Made by a program: the position numbers and the translations under genes | Notes under the pieces: model-generated | Database searches by the model: none | Told to the model about the DNA's origin: nothing | The model's input: the letters and a program-made list of their open reading frames with translations, nothing else | Source of the DNA: Spongiibacter thalassae | Lineage (GTDB): Bacteria; Pseudomonadota; Gammaproteobacteria; Pseudomonadales; Spongiibacteraceae | Length of the DNA stretch: 64,000 nt | Assembly: GCF_012272835.1 (NCBI RefSeq) | Contig: NZ_JAAWWK010000005.1 | Location: 22,125-86,124 of the forward strand | Direction: 5' to 3' | Part shown: positions 35,620 through 39,812 of the stretch, piece by piece | Numbering within the stretch: the stretch's first letter is position 1 | How the letters are laid out: the number at the start of each line of letters is the position of its first letter

Positions 35620-36450
35620 TTAGTCCTCGGCCTTTAATTCCTGCAGCATGGTTTTCACCGGCTCCACCTGATTCATTGTGTAGAAATGAATTCCGGGGGC
35701 GCCGCCTTCCATTAGAATCTGGCACATCTCGGTGACAAATTCGTTGCCGAACTTGCTGACGCTCTCCTGATCGTCGCCGTAACCTTCGAGTTTTCGGGTC
35801 AGCCAGCGGGGGATTTCCGCGCCACAGTTCCGTGAAAAACGGGCCAGATTCGTGAAGTTCAGTATTGGCATAATGCCGGGGTAGATCGGCTTATCTATGC
35901 CCGCCTTCTCGCAGTCTTCCAGAAAGTAGAAGTAGGCATCGGCGTTAAAGAAATACTGGGTGATGGCGCTGTTGGCACCGGCATCCAGCTTGGCTTTCAG
36001 GTAGCTGATGTCCTTGTCGTAGCTTTTGGCGTCGGGGTGAATTTCCGGGTAGGCCGCCACCTCAATCTCGAAGTGATCGCCGGTATGCTTGCGGATAAAC
36101 TCCACCAGCTCACGGGCATATACCAGCCGCGTCGCACCCATGCCCGAGGGAATATCCCCGCGCAGGGCGACAAGGCGTTTTACCCCGGCGTCCTTGTACT
36201 GCTGGATCAACTCCAGCACATCGGCTTCCTCGTCACCGCCAAAGGACAGGTGAGGGGCCACGTCGATTCCCGCCGCGCGGGTTTCCAGTACGATTCCGCG
36301 AGTGTTGTCCCGAGTTGAACCGCCAGCACCGTAGGTAACGGAAAAAAAGCTGGGGTCGAGGGTGTTCAACTCCGCCCGGGTTTGTTTCAGTTTTTCCCGC
36401 CCGGCTTCGGTCTTGGGGGGGAAAAATTCAAAACTGTAGCGTTTGTTCAT
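35620..36450 (-). CDS. metF: 5,10-methylenetetrahydrofolate reductase
   Basis: From ATG 36450 (MNKRYSFEFFPPKTEAGREKL) the protein has 276 residues, after AGGAAGA. A longer frame back to 36546 runs through repeat sequence and is rejected. The FAD-binding TIM barrel shows the catalytic glutamate in SFEFFPPKT, SVTYGAGGST and LRGDIP. It makes 5-methyl-THF for methionine synthase. It is the last gene of the SAM-cycle cluster and its leader carries one of the two heptamer repeat pairs. Confidence 0.95.
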   Translation of the reverse strand: MNKRYSFEFFPPKTEAGREKLKQTRAELNTLDPSFFSVTYGAGGSTRDNTRGIVLETRAAGIDVAPHLSFGGDEEADVLELIQQYKDAGVKRLVALRGDIPSGMGATRLVYARELVEFIRKHTGDHFEIEVAAYPEIHPDAKSYDKDISYLKAKLDAGANSAITQYFFNADAYFYFLEDCEKAGIDKPIYPGIMPILNFTNLARFSRNCGAEIPRWLTRKLEGYGDDQESVSKFGNEFVTEMCQILMEGGAPGIHFYTMNQVEPVKTMLQELKAED

Positions 36451-36468: not shown

Positions 36469-36503
36469 GCAAGACGCTAAATGCGAGACGCAAGACGTAA
36501 AAT
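36469..36503. repeat. Five degenerate heptamers (GCRAGAC type), left pair
   Basis: The run reads GCAAGAC, GCTAAAT, GCGAGAC, GCAAGAC, GTAAAAT in exact 7-bp register. It is the opposite orientation to the GTCTAGC array that begins 44 bp away at 36548. It sits 19 bp upstream of the metF start. In the metF leader RNA it could pair with the array with about one mismatch per heptamer. Confidence 0.8.
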
Positions 36504-36547: not shown

Positions 36548-36645
36548 GTCTAGCGTCTAGCGTCTAGCGTCTAGCGTCTAGCGTCTAGCGTCTAGCGTCT
36601 AGCGTCTAGCGTCTAGCGTCTAGCGTCTAGCGTCTAGCGTCTAGC
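36548..36645. repeat. Heptamer tandem array (GTCTAGC)14
   Basis: Fourteen perfect copies of GTCTAGC occupy 98 bp between ahcY and metF. A fifteenth degenerate copy GTCCCGC ends near the ahcY stop codon. The reading GCTAGAC on the other strand is the transcript sense. Perfect copy identity suggests recent expansion or active homogenisation. A second array of the same unit lies at 38511. Confidence 0.98.
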
Positions 36646-36656
36646 GTCCCGCCGCC

Positions 36657-38051
36657 TTAGTACTTATAACTCTCAGGCTTGAACGGCCCGTCCACGCTCA
36701 CACCAATATACTCTGCCTGCTCGGGCTTGAGTTTGGTGATCACGCCACCAAAACCAGCAACCATGTGGGCCGCCACTTCTTCGTCGAGTTTCTTGGGCAG
36801 TACCTGCACGGTCAGTGCGGCGGCTTTTTTGTCGGCGTCGAGGTCGGCGAAGCGGCGCTCATAGAGGTGAATCTGCGCCAGTACCTGGTTGGCGAAGGAG
36901 CCGTCCATGATGCGGCTGGGATGACCGGTCGCATTGCCCAGATTAACCAAGCGGCCTTCCGACAGCAGGATCAGGTGATCGTTGCTAGCGCGGTCGCGGT
37001 ATACCACATGGACCTGGGGTTTGATCTCGTCCCACTCCCAGTTGGCGCGCATATAGGCGGTGTCGATTTCGTTGTCGAAGTGACCAATGTTGCAGACCAC
37101 ACAGCCGTTTTTCAGGGCGCTGAGCATATTGGCGTCGCAGACGTTGACGTTGCCGGTGGTGGTCACCAGCAGGTCGGTGTTGCCGAGCAGGTCGGTGTTG
37201 ATGGAGTCGGCGGTGCCGGTGTTGATGCCGTCGATGTAGGGCGATACCACTTCAAAGCCATCCATGCACGCCTGCATGGCGCAGATGGGATCAACTTCGG
37301 TGATTTTTACTATCATGCCTTCCTGACGCAGTGATTGCGCAGAGCCCTTGCCCACGTCACCGTAGCCAATGACCAGCGCTTTTTTGCCGGATAACAGGTG
37401 GTCAGTGCCGCGCTTGATAGCATCGTTCAGGCTGTGGCGGCAGCCGTATTTGTTGTCGTTTTTCGACTTGGTGACCGAGTCGTTCACATTGATGGCGGGC
37501 ACTTTCAGCGTGCCTTTTTTCAGCATTTCCTGCAGGCGGTGAACCCCTGTGGTGGTCTCTTCAGTGATGCCGTGAATCTTGTCGAGCATCTGCGGGTATT
37601 TCTTGTGCAGAATTTCAGTCAGATCGCCGCCATCGTCCAGCACCATGTTCGCGTCCCAGGGCTGGCCGTCTTTCAGAATGGTTTGCTCGATACACCACTC
37701 GTATTCTTCCTCGGTTTCGCCCTTCCAGGCAAATACCGGAATACCGGCAGCGGCAATCGCCGCAGCGGCGTGGTCCTGGGTTGAGAAAATATTGCACGAC
37801 GACCAGCGCACTTCGGCACCGAGGGCGATCAGGGTTTCGATCAGCACGCCGGTTTGAATGGTCATGTGAATACAGCCGAGAATTTTGGCACCGGCCAATG
37901 GTTTTTCATCACCGTATTTTTCACGCAGTGCCATCAGAGCGGGCATCTCGCCCTCGGCGATAGCCAGTTCCTTGCGACCCCAGGCGGCCAGTGAAATATC
38001 CGCGACTTTGTAGTCGGTGAAGGTGGTGTTGCTTGCTGTTGCGGTGGTCAT
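36657..38051 (-). CDS. ahcY: S-adenosylhomocysteine hydrolase
   Basis: The 464-residue enzyme splits SAH into adenosine and homocysteine, relieving inhibition of methyltransferases. Conserved stretches include [56 protein letters not shown], the NAD loop [15 protein letters not shown] and the C-terminal PFKPESYKY. The start ATG 38051 follows GAGGTAG; a longer frame to 38192 crosses repeats and part of the next gene and is rejected. No SAH riboswitch structure is seen in its short leader. It lies between the two heptamer arrays. Confidence 0.96.
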
Positions 38052-38077: not shown

Positions 38078-38112
38078 GCGAGACGCAAAACGCGAGATGC
38101 GAGACGCTTTTT
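38078..38112. repeat. Five degenerate heptamers (GCRAGAC type), right pair
   Basis: GCGAGAC, GCAAAAC, GCGAGAT, GCGAGAC, GCTTTTT run in 7-bp register, 27 bp upstream of the ahcY start and 10 bp past the stop of the four-helix-bundle gene. The orientation is opposite to the GTCTAGC array at 38511. Copy number and consensus match the block at 36469-36503. Confidence 0.8.
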
Positions 38113-38122
38113 GCCAAAGCCC

Positions 38123-38476
38123 TTAGCTCTGTTTCAGTTTTCGAATAAGCCCGGATAACTGAGCAAATATGGCGTCGGTTTTTTCCCGCCAACTTGCTGT
38201 GTCATTCAAATACCCCAGGCTCGATGCGATTAATAATTGTGTTTCCAGCTCGGCTAAAGAGCCTCGCGCGATGTAAAGAAAGCGTAAATACTCCCTGTCA
38301 CTCTCCCGGGCAGCGCCCTCGGCAATATTCGACGGAATACTGACTGCAGCGCGACGCATCTGGCTGAACAATCCAAACTGCTCATGAGCAGGGAATGCAT
38401 TGGTCAGCTGATAAATCTCCGGCACAAGTGCCATGGATCGCTGCCATACCTGCAATTTTGTGTGCTTGCGTTCCAT
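38123..38476 (-). CDS. Four-helix-bundle protein (S23 / Avd-like, TIGR02436 type)
   Basis: This 117-residue protein starts [29 protein letters not shown] and carries the family core [51 protein letters not shown]. Four amphipathic helices are evident. Relatives are encoded in intervening sequences of 23S rRNA genes and, as Avd, in diversity-generating retroelements; a nucleic-acid-binding role is known for Avd. Here it interrupts metK and ahcY and is framed by inverted heptamer blocks (38078-38112 and 38511-38603). That suggests it belongs to a small element rather than the SAM cycle. Its own function is unknown. Confidence 0.9.
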
Positions 38477-38510
38477 CGCTTTGCACCCTCATTAAAACTC
38501 CAATAATTTC

Positions 38511-38603
38511 TCTAGCGTCTAGCGTCTAGCGTCTAGCGTCTAGCGTCTAGCGTCTAGCGTCTAGCGCCGTTGGCCTCTCCCGTCTCCCGTCCAGCCTCTC
38601 CCT
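38511..38603. repeat. Heptamer tandem array (TCTAGCG)8 plus degenerate tail
   Basis: Eight perfect copies of TCTAGCG fill 38511-38566, the same unit and orientation as the array at 36548. Degenerate heptamers (GTCTCCC, GTCCAGC, CTCTCCC) continue to 38603 and stop exactly at the metK stop codon. The array lies 34 bp upstream of the four-helix-bundle start on that gene's strand. Confidence 0.95.
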
Positions 38604-39812
38604 TCAAAGCGCCGCTTTCAGTGCCTCGGCGCGGTCGGTTTTCTCCCAGCTGAAGGCGGTGGCGGTTTCGCTGCGCACTTCACCGTTTTCCTTGTAGGTG
38701 TAGGTGTGCTCGTAGGGGTCGCGGCCGAAGTGGCCGTAGGCGGCGGTCGGCTGGTACATCGGGTGAGCCAGGTCGAGCATTTTGGTAATGCCGTAGGGGC
38801 GCAGGTCGAAAACTTCCCGTACCGCGGCGACCAGTTTGTCGTCGCTGACTTTGCCGGTGCCAAAGGTGTTGATGGAGATTGATGTGGGCTCGGCAACGCC
38901 GATGGCGTAGCTCACCTGAATTTCGCAGCGGTCGGCGAGGCCGGCGGCGACGATGTTTTTGGCGACGTAACGGCCAGCATACGCTGCGCTGCGGTCAACC
39001 TTGGAGGGGTCCTTGCCGGAGAATGCCCCGCCACCGTGGCGAGCCATGCCGCCGTAGGTGTCAACGATGATTTTACGGCCGGTCAGGCCGCAGTCGCCCA
39101 CGGGGCCACCGATGACAAAGTTGCCGGTGGGGTTGATATGAAACTTGGTGCCAGCGTGCAGCAGTTCGGCGGGCAGGACGTTTTTGATAATTTCTTCACG
39201 CACCGCTTCCTGCAGGTCGTTTTGGCTGATTTCGGGGTTGTGCTGGGTAGACAGTACCACCGCGTCAACGGCTACCGGCACGCCGTTTTCGTAGCGCAGG
39301 GTAACCTGGCTTTTGGCATCAGGGCGCAGCCAGGGCAGCACGCCGTTTTTGCGCAGGTAGGCCTGACGCTCTACCAGACGGTGAGAGAAAAACAGCGGGG
39401 CGGGCATCAGCGACGGGGTTTCGTTGGTGGCGTAGCCAAACATCAGGCCCTGATCGCCCGCGCCCTGATCTTCCGGCCTGGCGCGATCTACGCCCTGGTT
39501 GATATCGACAGACTGTTTGCCGATAGCGTTCAGTACCGCACAGCTGGCGCCGTCGAAGCCGACGTCGGAGCTGTTGTAGCCGATGCCGGTAATGACATCG
39601 CGAATGATATCTTCCAGATCGACGTAGCAGGAGGTAGTGACCTCGCCGGCAACGACCGCCATACCGGTTTTTACCAGGGTTTCCACGGCGACACGGGCGT
39701 GCTTGTCGCGGGCGATAATCGCGTCGAGTACGGCGTCAGAAATCTGATCGGCCATTTTATCCGGATGTCCCTCGGAGACGGACTCGGAGGTGAAAATACT
39801 GTATTCAGACAT
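38604..39812 (-). CDS. metK: S-adenosylmethionine synthase
   Basis: The 402-residue enzyme joins methionine and ATP into SAM. Hallmarks are [21 protein letters not shown] at the N terminus, [14 protein letters not shown] near 118-131, and the P-loop-like [19 protein letters not shown] near 258-276. GAGGAAG precedes the start. It is downstream of the ArsR/methyltransferase gene, with a hairpin between them. Heptamer repeats begin right after its stop. Confidence 0.97.

Follow-up and report, generated by a model that had tools for sequence, protein, structure and literature searches.

A gene of the IVP/S23 four-helix-bundle family lies between metK and ahcY in Spongiibacter thalassae and is framed by heptamer arrays in opposite orientation. 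We consider it probable that the gene and its inverted arrays constitute one small (~0.45 kb) mobile or selfish element, and that the arrays found elsewhere without a gene are its derivatives. This reading as an element is well supported, while the mechanism of binding and spread outlined below is a proposal. A heptamer-array element of this kind could account in part for the 7-letter repeats dispersed in many bacterial genomes.

The window, i.e. the whole 64,000-nucleotide stretch analysed, contains the IVP gene (117 codons' worth of protein, 117 aa) at 38123..38476 on the minus strand, as identified by PF05635 and TIGR02436 profile scores. The host genes are encoded on the same strand, with metK upstream of the element (38604..39812; TIGR01034, 605 bits), ahcY downstream (36657..38051; TIGR00936, 522 bits) and metF at 35620..36450 (TIGR00676, 321 bits), the start codons of ahcY and metF being set by homology. 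A 5' array of eight units, GCTAGAC on the gene's strand, occupies 38511..38566 (minus strand), where TRF reports 8.0 perfect TCTAGCG copies with 100% match. On the metK side are four degenerate heptamers (CTCTCCC, GTCTCCC, GTCCAGC, CTCTCCC; 38575..38602, minus strand) of the GGGAGAC/GCTGGAC kind, a motif referred to as type A that flanks the IVP gene in five congeners. The 3' heptamers (38078..38107, minus strand) are inverted with respect to the 5' array and read GCGAGAC, GCAAAAC, GCGAGAT, GCGAGAC and a final GC on the plus strand. The order on the gene's strand is metK, the degenerate GGGAGAC-like heptamers, eight GCTAGAC units, the gene, four GTCTCGC-like heptamers and ahcY. Inverted heptamer arrays around an S23 gene had been described at this position in an earlier, sequence-only reading, and are borne out by the sequence, TRF and shuffling. 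Its count of eight perfect plus degenerate units was correct, whereas the five units given for the other side are four plus two bases; the last heptamer stops one base short of the metK stop codon (38604-38606).

A second and larger inverted heptamer pair, overlooked in that reading, is present without a gene in the ahcY-metF gap. It consists of an array of 14.4 units (36548..36648, minus strand; TRF) and an inverted partner (36469..36497, minus strand), reading on the plus strand GTCTAGC x14.4 and GCAAGAC, GCTAAAT, GCGAGAC, GCAAGAC plus a G, respectively. On the gene strand, GCTAGAC x14.4 follows the ahcY stop, and GTCTTGC/GTCTCGC units precede metF. Allowing ≤2 mismatches, GTCTAGCGTCTAGC has 22 matches in the window (both gaps pooled) versus 0.23 expected, a count reached by 0/100 shuffles. 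The host genome has 161 matches of a three-unit pattern (≤2 mismatches) on several contigs, and the window's IVP gene is its sole TIGR02436 match. The arrays as a local accident of the metK-ahcY gap are ruled out by arrays genome-wide, in congeners and in other phyla. Separately, positions 1-136 of the window hold a 13-bp tandem repeat, GACCCCCGGGACA, in 10.5 perfect copies.

The protein belongs to the S23/IVP family, scoring 129.2 bits with PF05635 (cut-off 33.8) and 130.6 bits with TIGR02436 (cut-off 24). The gene had previously been called S23/Avd-like; Avd/DGR membership was rejected on a score of 21.1 bits with the Avd model NF033474, well below its cut-off of 80. The likeness to Avd is one of four-helix fold (4dwl and 8ub7, TM ~0.6, with Foldseek E-values of only 0.3), and no reverse transcriptase was found among five ORFs scanned around the IVP gene. 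A structure model of the window's protein (pLDDT 92) has 2gsc (XCC0516) as its best Foldseek match, with TM values of 0.81-0.87 to 2gsc and 0.62-0.68 to 2rld. S23/IVP structures have been solved since 2006, their entries describing the proteins as conserved hypothetical or without assigned function. Ten aligned IVP proteins share 13 invariant columns, including N50, E53, R65 and E76, and of nine gene pairs compared, the six that gave a usable estimate have a dN/dS of 0.01-0.21, which indicates purifying selection. A profile search detected no nuclease or transposase domain in the protein. Phage cargo was considered and dropped, the window's IVP having no match in 50,697 phage records.

The association between IVP genes and heptamer arrays is general. 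We analysed the flanks of a best-80 set, comprising the best 80 of 590 loci, from many phyla, ranked by similarity to the query in a scan with the ten aligned proteins, and of a gamma set of 27 further gammaproteobacterial loci (28 new loci minus L174, which was not placed). The 120-bp flanks of the best-80 set show a mean self-match at lag 7 of 0.387 upstream and 0.367 downstream, with further peaks at 14, 21 and 28 and values of 0.25-0.31 at the other lags (lags 2-30); 280 ORFs taken from these loci as controls lack peaks of the lag-7 series. In the gamma set the lag-7 values are 0.455 and 0.418, with peaks at 14 and 21 (lags 4-22). Individual loci were then scored for a lag-7 array at p ≤ 0.05, leaving out L091 and L140 (broken frames) and masked or short flanks (one L138 flank consists of masked letters). 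Arrays were found upstream in 49/76, downstream in 51/78, in either flank in 61/76 and in both in 38/76 of the best-80 loci; the corresponding gamma set counts are 26/27, 21/27, 27/27 and 20/27. The remaining 15/76 best-80 loci have no significant lag-7 array in either flank. Scored for either flank, lag 6 gave 10/76 (best-80) and 3/27 (gamma), and lag 8 gave 15/76 and 1/27. Intergenic control gaps of these loci gave 28/152 at lag 7, 7/152 at lag 6 and 6/152 at lag 8, the excess at lag 7 being what scattered copies would themselves give.

The flanking arrays have inverted symmetry. For 75 of the best-80 loci, alignment of the upstream flank with the reverse-complemented downstream flank yields a mean local score of 16.7, compared with 10.5 on the same strand and means of 7.8 and 7.1 against flanks of other loci. 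The inverted score tops all other-locus scores in 30/75 of these loci, and the same-strand score does so in 6/75; in the gamma set, where other-locus scores reach up to 25, the counts are 7/27 and 1. At the level of words, the upstream and downstream heptamers are reverse complements of each other with ≤1 mismatch in 31 of the 45 loci with both arrays clear, versus 4/45 on the same strand and 1/45 for another locus. The flanks are strongly direct in 6/75 best-80 loci, and L235 is direct too. Direct repeats instead of, or besides, inverted ones were noted at L110, L120, L144, L157, L162, L096 and L235. Arrays above threshold have a median length of 5.0 units upstream and 4.6 downstream, short arrays being cut off by the threshold. 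At three loci (L092, L107, L119) two IVP matches lie no more than ~5 kb apart. IVP elements occur between unrelated genes, including conjugation and ribonucleotide reductase genes, and also in 23S rRNA. In two cyanobacterial genera (L228, L235) the IVP gene lies between genes annotated cas6 and cas4, and at L234 between the Cmr2 and Cmr3 genes.

At the site itself, presence of the gene varies within the genus. We located ahcY in 55 of 57 genomes (the window's own included), retrieved 30 loci and examined the gaps of 22. An IVP gene adjoins ahcY in 10/18 genus genomes, the window's own counted in (G000, G001, G002, G004, G008, G010, G014-G017), while the remaining 8/18 (G003, G005, G006, G007, G009, G011, G012, G013) have a gap of 31-43 bp. 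G012 has a weak IVP-family match elsewhere in its genome. The eight other intact carriers again have inverted heptamers as flanks, but the words differ from the window's: type A (GGGAGAC, GCTGGAC) in G001, G004, G008, G014 and G015, and type B (GTCGGAT, GTCTGAC) in G010, G016 and G017. GTCTAGC arrays are ruled out as the element's conserved ends, since an exact three-unit GTCTNGC array occurs in only 2/18 genomes, the window's and G014, and G014 has type A at the gene. In the G002 assembly (84% complete, 7% contamination) the region is present twice; the gene is intact in one copy (C45) but broken and mixed in the other (C49). By eye, the broken gene (L039) starts like type B, ends like type A and has other repeats inside; apparently, elements of the two types have recombined there.

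Mapped on a host phylogeny built from three proteins, with 23 rows that take in other genera and with G002 scored as carrier, IVP presence requires five changes, at least four of which are forced by well supported branches; carriers still group together to some degree, as few changes being reached in 15-17 of 500 shuffles. The pattern of carriers and short gaps at the window's site may reflect gain or loss. Type A and type B IVP genes form two clades with support of 100/100 each. However, G010 (type B) and G001 (type A) are sisters in the host phylogeny, with an ahcY pN of 0.006 and only 51% identity between their IVP proteins. The gene and its matching flanks were therefore replaced together. 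As these form one contiguous stretch, such joint replacement is in itself compatible with recombination as well as with transposition. In the sister species G016 and G017 (L040, L041) the metK-ahcY element is nearly identical, and the ahcY-metF gap contains gene-less elements of different types (A and B). Insertion differences between these two genomes were dropped, and yield no exact element ends, because chaining recovered no more than ~20 kb of collinear sequence, at 88% identity.

The sequence-only reading took gene and repeats for a single unit that had entered the SAM-cycle operon. This is supported, as relatives vary in gene presence and other TIGR02436/IVP genes also show a strong enrichment of heptamers at their sides; neither of the contrary patterns it had named, uniform retention at this locus or lack of enrichment elsewhere, was found. 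It needs amending in that heptamer elements also occur without the gene and that other carriers use other words at the site. Outside the genus, an IVP gene in the SAM-cycle operon was seen at 5 of 113 loci, a set that includes the best 80 of 590 chosen by likeness to the window's protein: L079 and L178 (metK-ahcY) and L190, L094 and L095 (ahcY-metF). A preferred insertion site, common ancestry or a functional connection could each account for this recurrence.

Filled and empty versions of the same site were also found on plasmids. IVP is present in 29 PLSDB records, 23 of them cyanobacterial. Site T is filled in Trichormus variabilis ATCC 29413 (L232) and Scytonema NIES-4073 (L239) and empty in Nostoc linckia NIES-25 (L237) and Tolypothrix PCC 7601 (L238), with flanks ~98% identical; four more plasmid records appear empty on coverage alone. 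Gene and both arrays are present or absent as one; L239 has two left heptamers fewer than L232. The empty AAAAAGTAATTAACAA becomes AAAAAGTAAT, the insert and GTAATTAACAA in the filled state, with an exact 5-bp duplication, GTAAT, on either side of the insert that is single in the empty site. By eye, Nostoc C052 pC052_E (L240) holds a decayed remnant at site T. Site 1 is filled in L233, L246 and L248 and empty in L236, L245 and L247, with an approximate duplication (TTCTA left, TTCTA or TTCTG right, one base lost). Site 2, at or near a stop-start overlap, is filled in L236 and empty in L233, L245 and L246, again with an approximate duplication (TAATG left, TTATG right). A fourth site, in Aulosira, has no clean duplication, and at the Calothrix and Nostoc C052 TraM sites the divergence is too great for ends to be placed. 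Two insertions in Calothrix NIES-22 plasmids were dropped as a case, because both plasmids share one homologous 3.6-kb segment and are not independent.

These sites bear on a regulatory explanation, in which IVP would be a host RNA- or DNA-binding regulator and the arrays its binding sites, serving auto-regulation and a regulon, with their position in gaps reflecting control of mRNA. The arrays sit a median of 18 bp ahead of the start codon and 7.5 bp past the stop, the purifying selection on the gene would suit a host function, and translational control has been suggested for the TAACTGA heptamers of Beggiatoaceae (MacGregor 2015; PMC4679880, in the portion of the text available). Yet the gene and both arrays are jointly absent from empty sites, one of which reveals the 5-bp duplication; the presence of IVP is patchy; and its elements lie between genes as unrelated as cas6 and cas4, Cmr2 and Cmr3, conjugation and ribonucleotide reductase genes, as well as in 23S rRNA. 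We regard regulation as an unlikely account of the arrays.

Copies of the arrays without a gene are dispersed through carrier genomes. Two diagnostic patterns, types A and B, give 13-76 matches in the 10 IVP-positive congeners versus 0-1 in the 8 IVP-negative ones, a comparison that would overlook any non-carrier arrays built on other words, because the patterns derive from carriers' gaps, and in which the element at the IVP gene itself contributes a few matches to carrier counts. Type A+B matches in carriers are 13+0 (G000), 36+28 (G001), 35+9 (G002), 8+10 (G004), 28+17 (G008), 57+19 (G010), 30+21 (G014), 26+27 (G015), 14+30 (G016) and 16+31 (G017). The non-carriers have 1+0 (G003, G005, G007, G009, G012), 0+1 (G011) or 0+0 (G006, G013). 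In other genera of the family, G018 has 1+0, G019 0+8 and G020 31+34; the IVP gene was not detected in these three assemblies, of which G019 is 89% and G020 70% complete. The 57 type A matches of G010 include 16 adjacent opposite-strand pairs within 500 bp, all in the order plus then minus and none reversed. All 16 sampled pairs are located between ORFs of at least 100 aa (one touching an ORF), and one spans 1.3 kb. In 8/16 of these elements the core motif starts ≤17 bp past the stop of a plus-strand ORF.

Across the class, the number of heptamer copies correlates with the presence of the gene. IVP is present in 72 of 369 Gammaproteobacteria, which we searched with a generic pattern, GKGANNN x4, picked because by our reading it covers ~1/3 of gamma-set flank words; several of the genomes tested also supplied such words. 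At least one match occurs in 41/72 IVP-positive versus 33/297 IVP-negative genomes, and at least eight in 23/72 versus 2/297 (Fisher p 4e-16), the IVP flanks themselves supplying some of the matches (all 3 in G455, 5/9 in G175). No match to this pattern was found in 31/72 IVP-positive genomes. Of 31 families of mixed state, 16 have a higher mean among their IVP-positive members, 2 have a lower one and 13 are tied. The two IVP-negative genomes with at least eight matches are G150 (10, on one strand) and G265 (95), the latter being 100% complete with no IVP match. Five stretches of G265 (L254-L258) contain GTGANNN-type heptamer arrays, with overlapping ORFs; these arrays may be relics or the sign of another partner. 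Spread is thus not strictly dependent on a gene present now, because G019, G020 and G265 have elements without a detectable IVP. IVP carriage and repeat richness may also share a third cause. The pattern read backwards was dropped as a chance control, as AGKG-type arrays match it; it scores in G359 and G409, neither among the IVP-positive genomes.

Elements without IVP are also what one would expect of REP- or REPIN-like repeats whose movement depends on a transposase, be it a RAYT or some other, with IVP as a passenger between two of them. REPINs are inverted doublets with a spacer in intergenic DNA, tied to a RAYT partner gene (PMC3116915, as far as its accessible text describes them), and the heptamer doublets resemble them; moreover, IVP has no nuclease domain. 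Against this, the word varies by lineage while IVP is the constant partner (in loci found via that gene), and the elements correlate with IVP presence, making a passenger role quite improbable. That ordinary slippage-prone repeats expanded by chance in gaps where IVP merely happens to be located is already contradicted and can be set aside almost entirely: unit number does vary (L239 versus L232) and the window has one long perfect array, but period 7 exceeds 6 and 8, the flanking arrays are inverted, and arrays occur at 61/76 (best 80 of 590) and 27/27 loci against 28/152 controls.

For the mobile element, we propose the following mechanism, in which heptamer binding by IVP, its role in spread and hairpin formation are inferred. 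The inverted arrays would fold as a hairpin in RNA or single-stranded DNA, and the IVP protein would recognise the arrays on this hairpin, with about one heptamer per subunit. IVP would then assist in copying or moving the hairpin to new gaps, with a short target duplication. Gene-less inverted array pairs around a spacer would be non-autonomous derivatives that gather in intergenic gaps, often settling just past stop codons. The heptamer word may drift and expand by slippage in each lineage alongside its protein; word and protein would remain matched while diverging between species, because both change together. The 2gsc and 2rld entries hold five chains each, and such solved relatives we take to be pentamers; about five units per array fits one unit per pentamer subunit but proves nothing. 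If IVP is indeed the repeats' partner, then binding, word-protein specificity and movement become directly testable.

More tentatively, these elements could represent a separate, Bacteria-wide class, a possibility we take seriously but to which we would not commit. Its sole gene would encode a four-helix-bundle protein without a known nuclease, and its ends would be arrays of 7-bp units whose word can change so long as it fits that protein, with roughly one unit to a subunit; rRNA intervening sequences would be those members that had inserted into 23S genes, and the heptamers of Xanthomonas, Nostoc and others gene-less derivatives. Two loose ends, the S23/IVP proteins and bacterial heptameric repeats, may be one; were the protein the partner of the repeats, rRNA intervening sequences would gain an origin, and many automatic 'four helix bundle protein' annotations would denote a selfish element.

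Among known systems, the nearest in protein content are the 23S rRNA intervening sequences (IVSs) of Coxiella and Leptospira, which have an S23p ORF, terminal inverted repeats and a length of 428 nt. In Coxiella, tandem GACAGAT heptamers precede the ORF in a number that varies by strain, and the IVS has been termed selfish; the accessible portion of this source (PMC4990558) contains neither a general inverted-heptamer mark of the family nor an element with target duplication. The window's element has the same protein family and terminal inverted repeats around an S23 ORF. In contrast to what that portion describes, it lies between metK and ahcY, outside an rRNA gene, and gene-less derivatives of its type are scattered through carrier genomes. 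One of the loci studied here, L081, is a 23S rRNA IVS bearing inverted CAGAGGA-type heptamers. In a search of open-literature titles and the opening parts of abstracts, S23 and heptamers are joined only in PMC4990558; some other papers hold both 'four helix bundle protein' and 'repeats' in their text, and novelty is not proved.

Intergenic heptamer arrays, some of them inverted, are also a point of likeness to published repeats, as far as the accessible texts go. Heptameric repeats are over-represented in many bacterial genomes and little studied in detail, examples being GGGAATC in Xanthomonas and GGGGA(T/C)T in Nostoc (PMC4692102), and for the TAACTGA repeats of Beggiatoaceae MacGregor raised the idea that the mobile element could be a protein that binds them (PMC4679880). 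The term 'S23' is absent from the main texts of these two papers, which name no S23 partner there. In Xanthomonas arboricola (L105) and Luteimonas (L089) the IVP gene is followed downstream by a word resembling GGGAATC, and it is through such flank words, at these loci and on cyanobacterial plasmids, that a link between published repeats and IVP is suggested.

For the dispersed copies, the closest analogy is REPIN-RAYT. Like REPINs, as outlined in the available part of PMC3116915, the heptamer elements are many-copy inverted doublets in gaps with a specific partner gene. They differ in the partner identified, a four-helix-bundle protein as against the RAYT tyrosine transposase of REPINs, and in that the element ends are arrays of 7-bp units in variable number.
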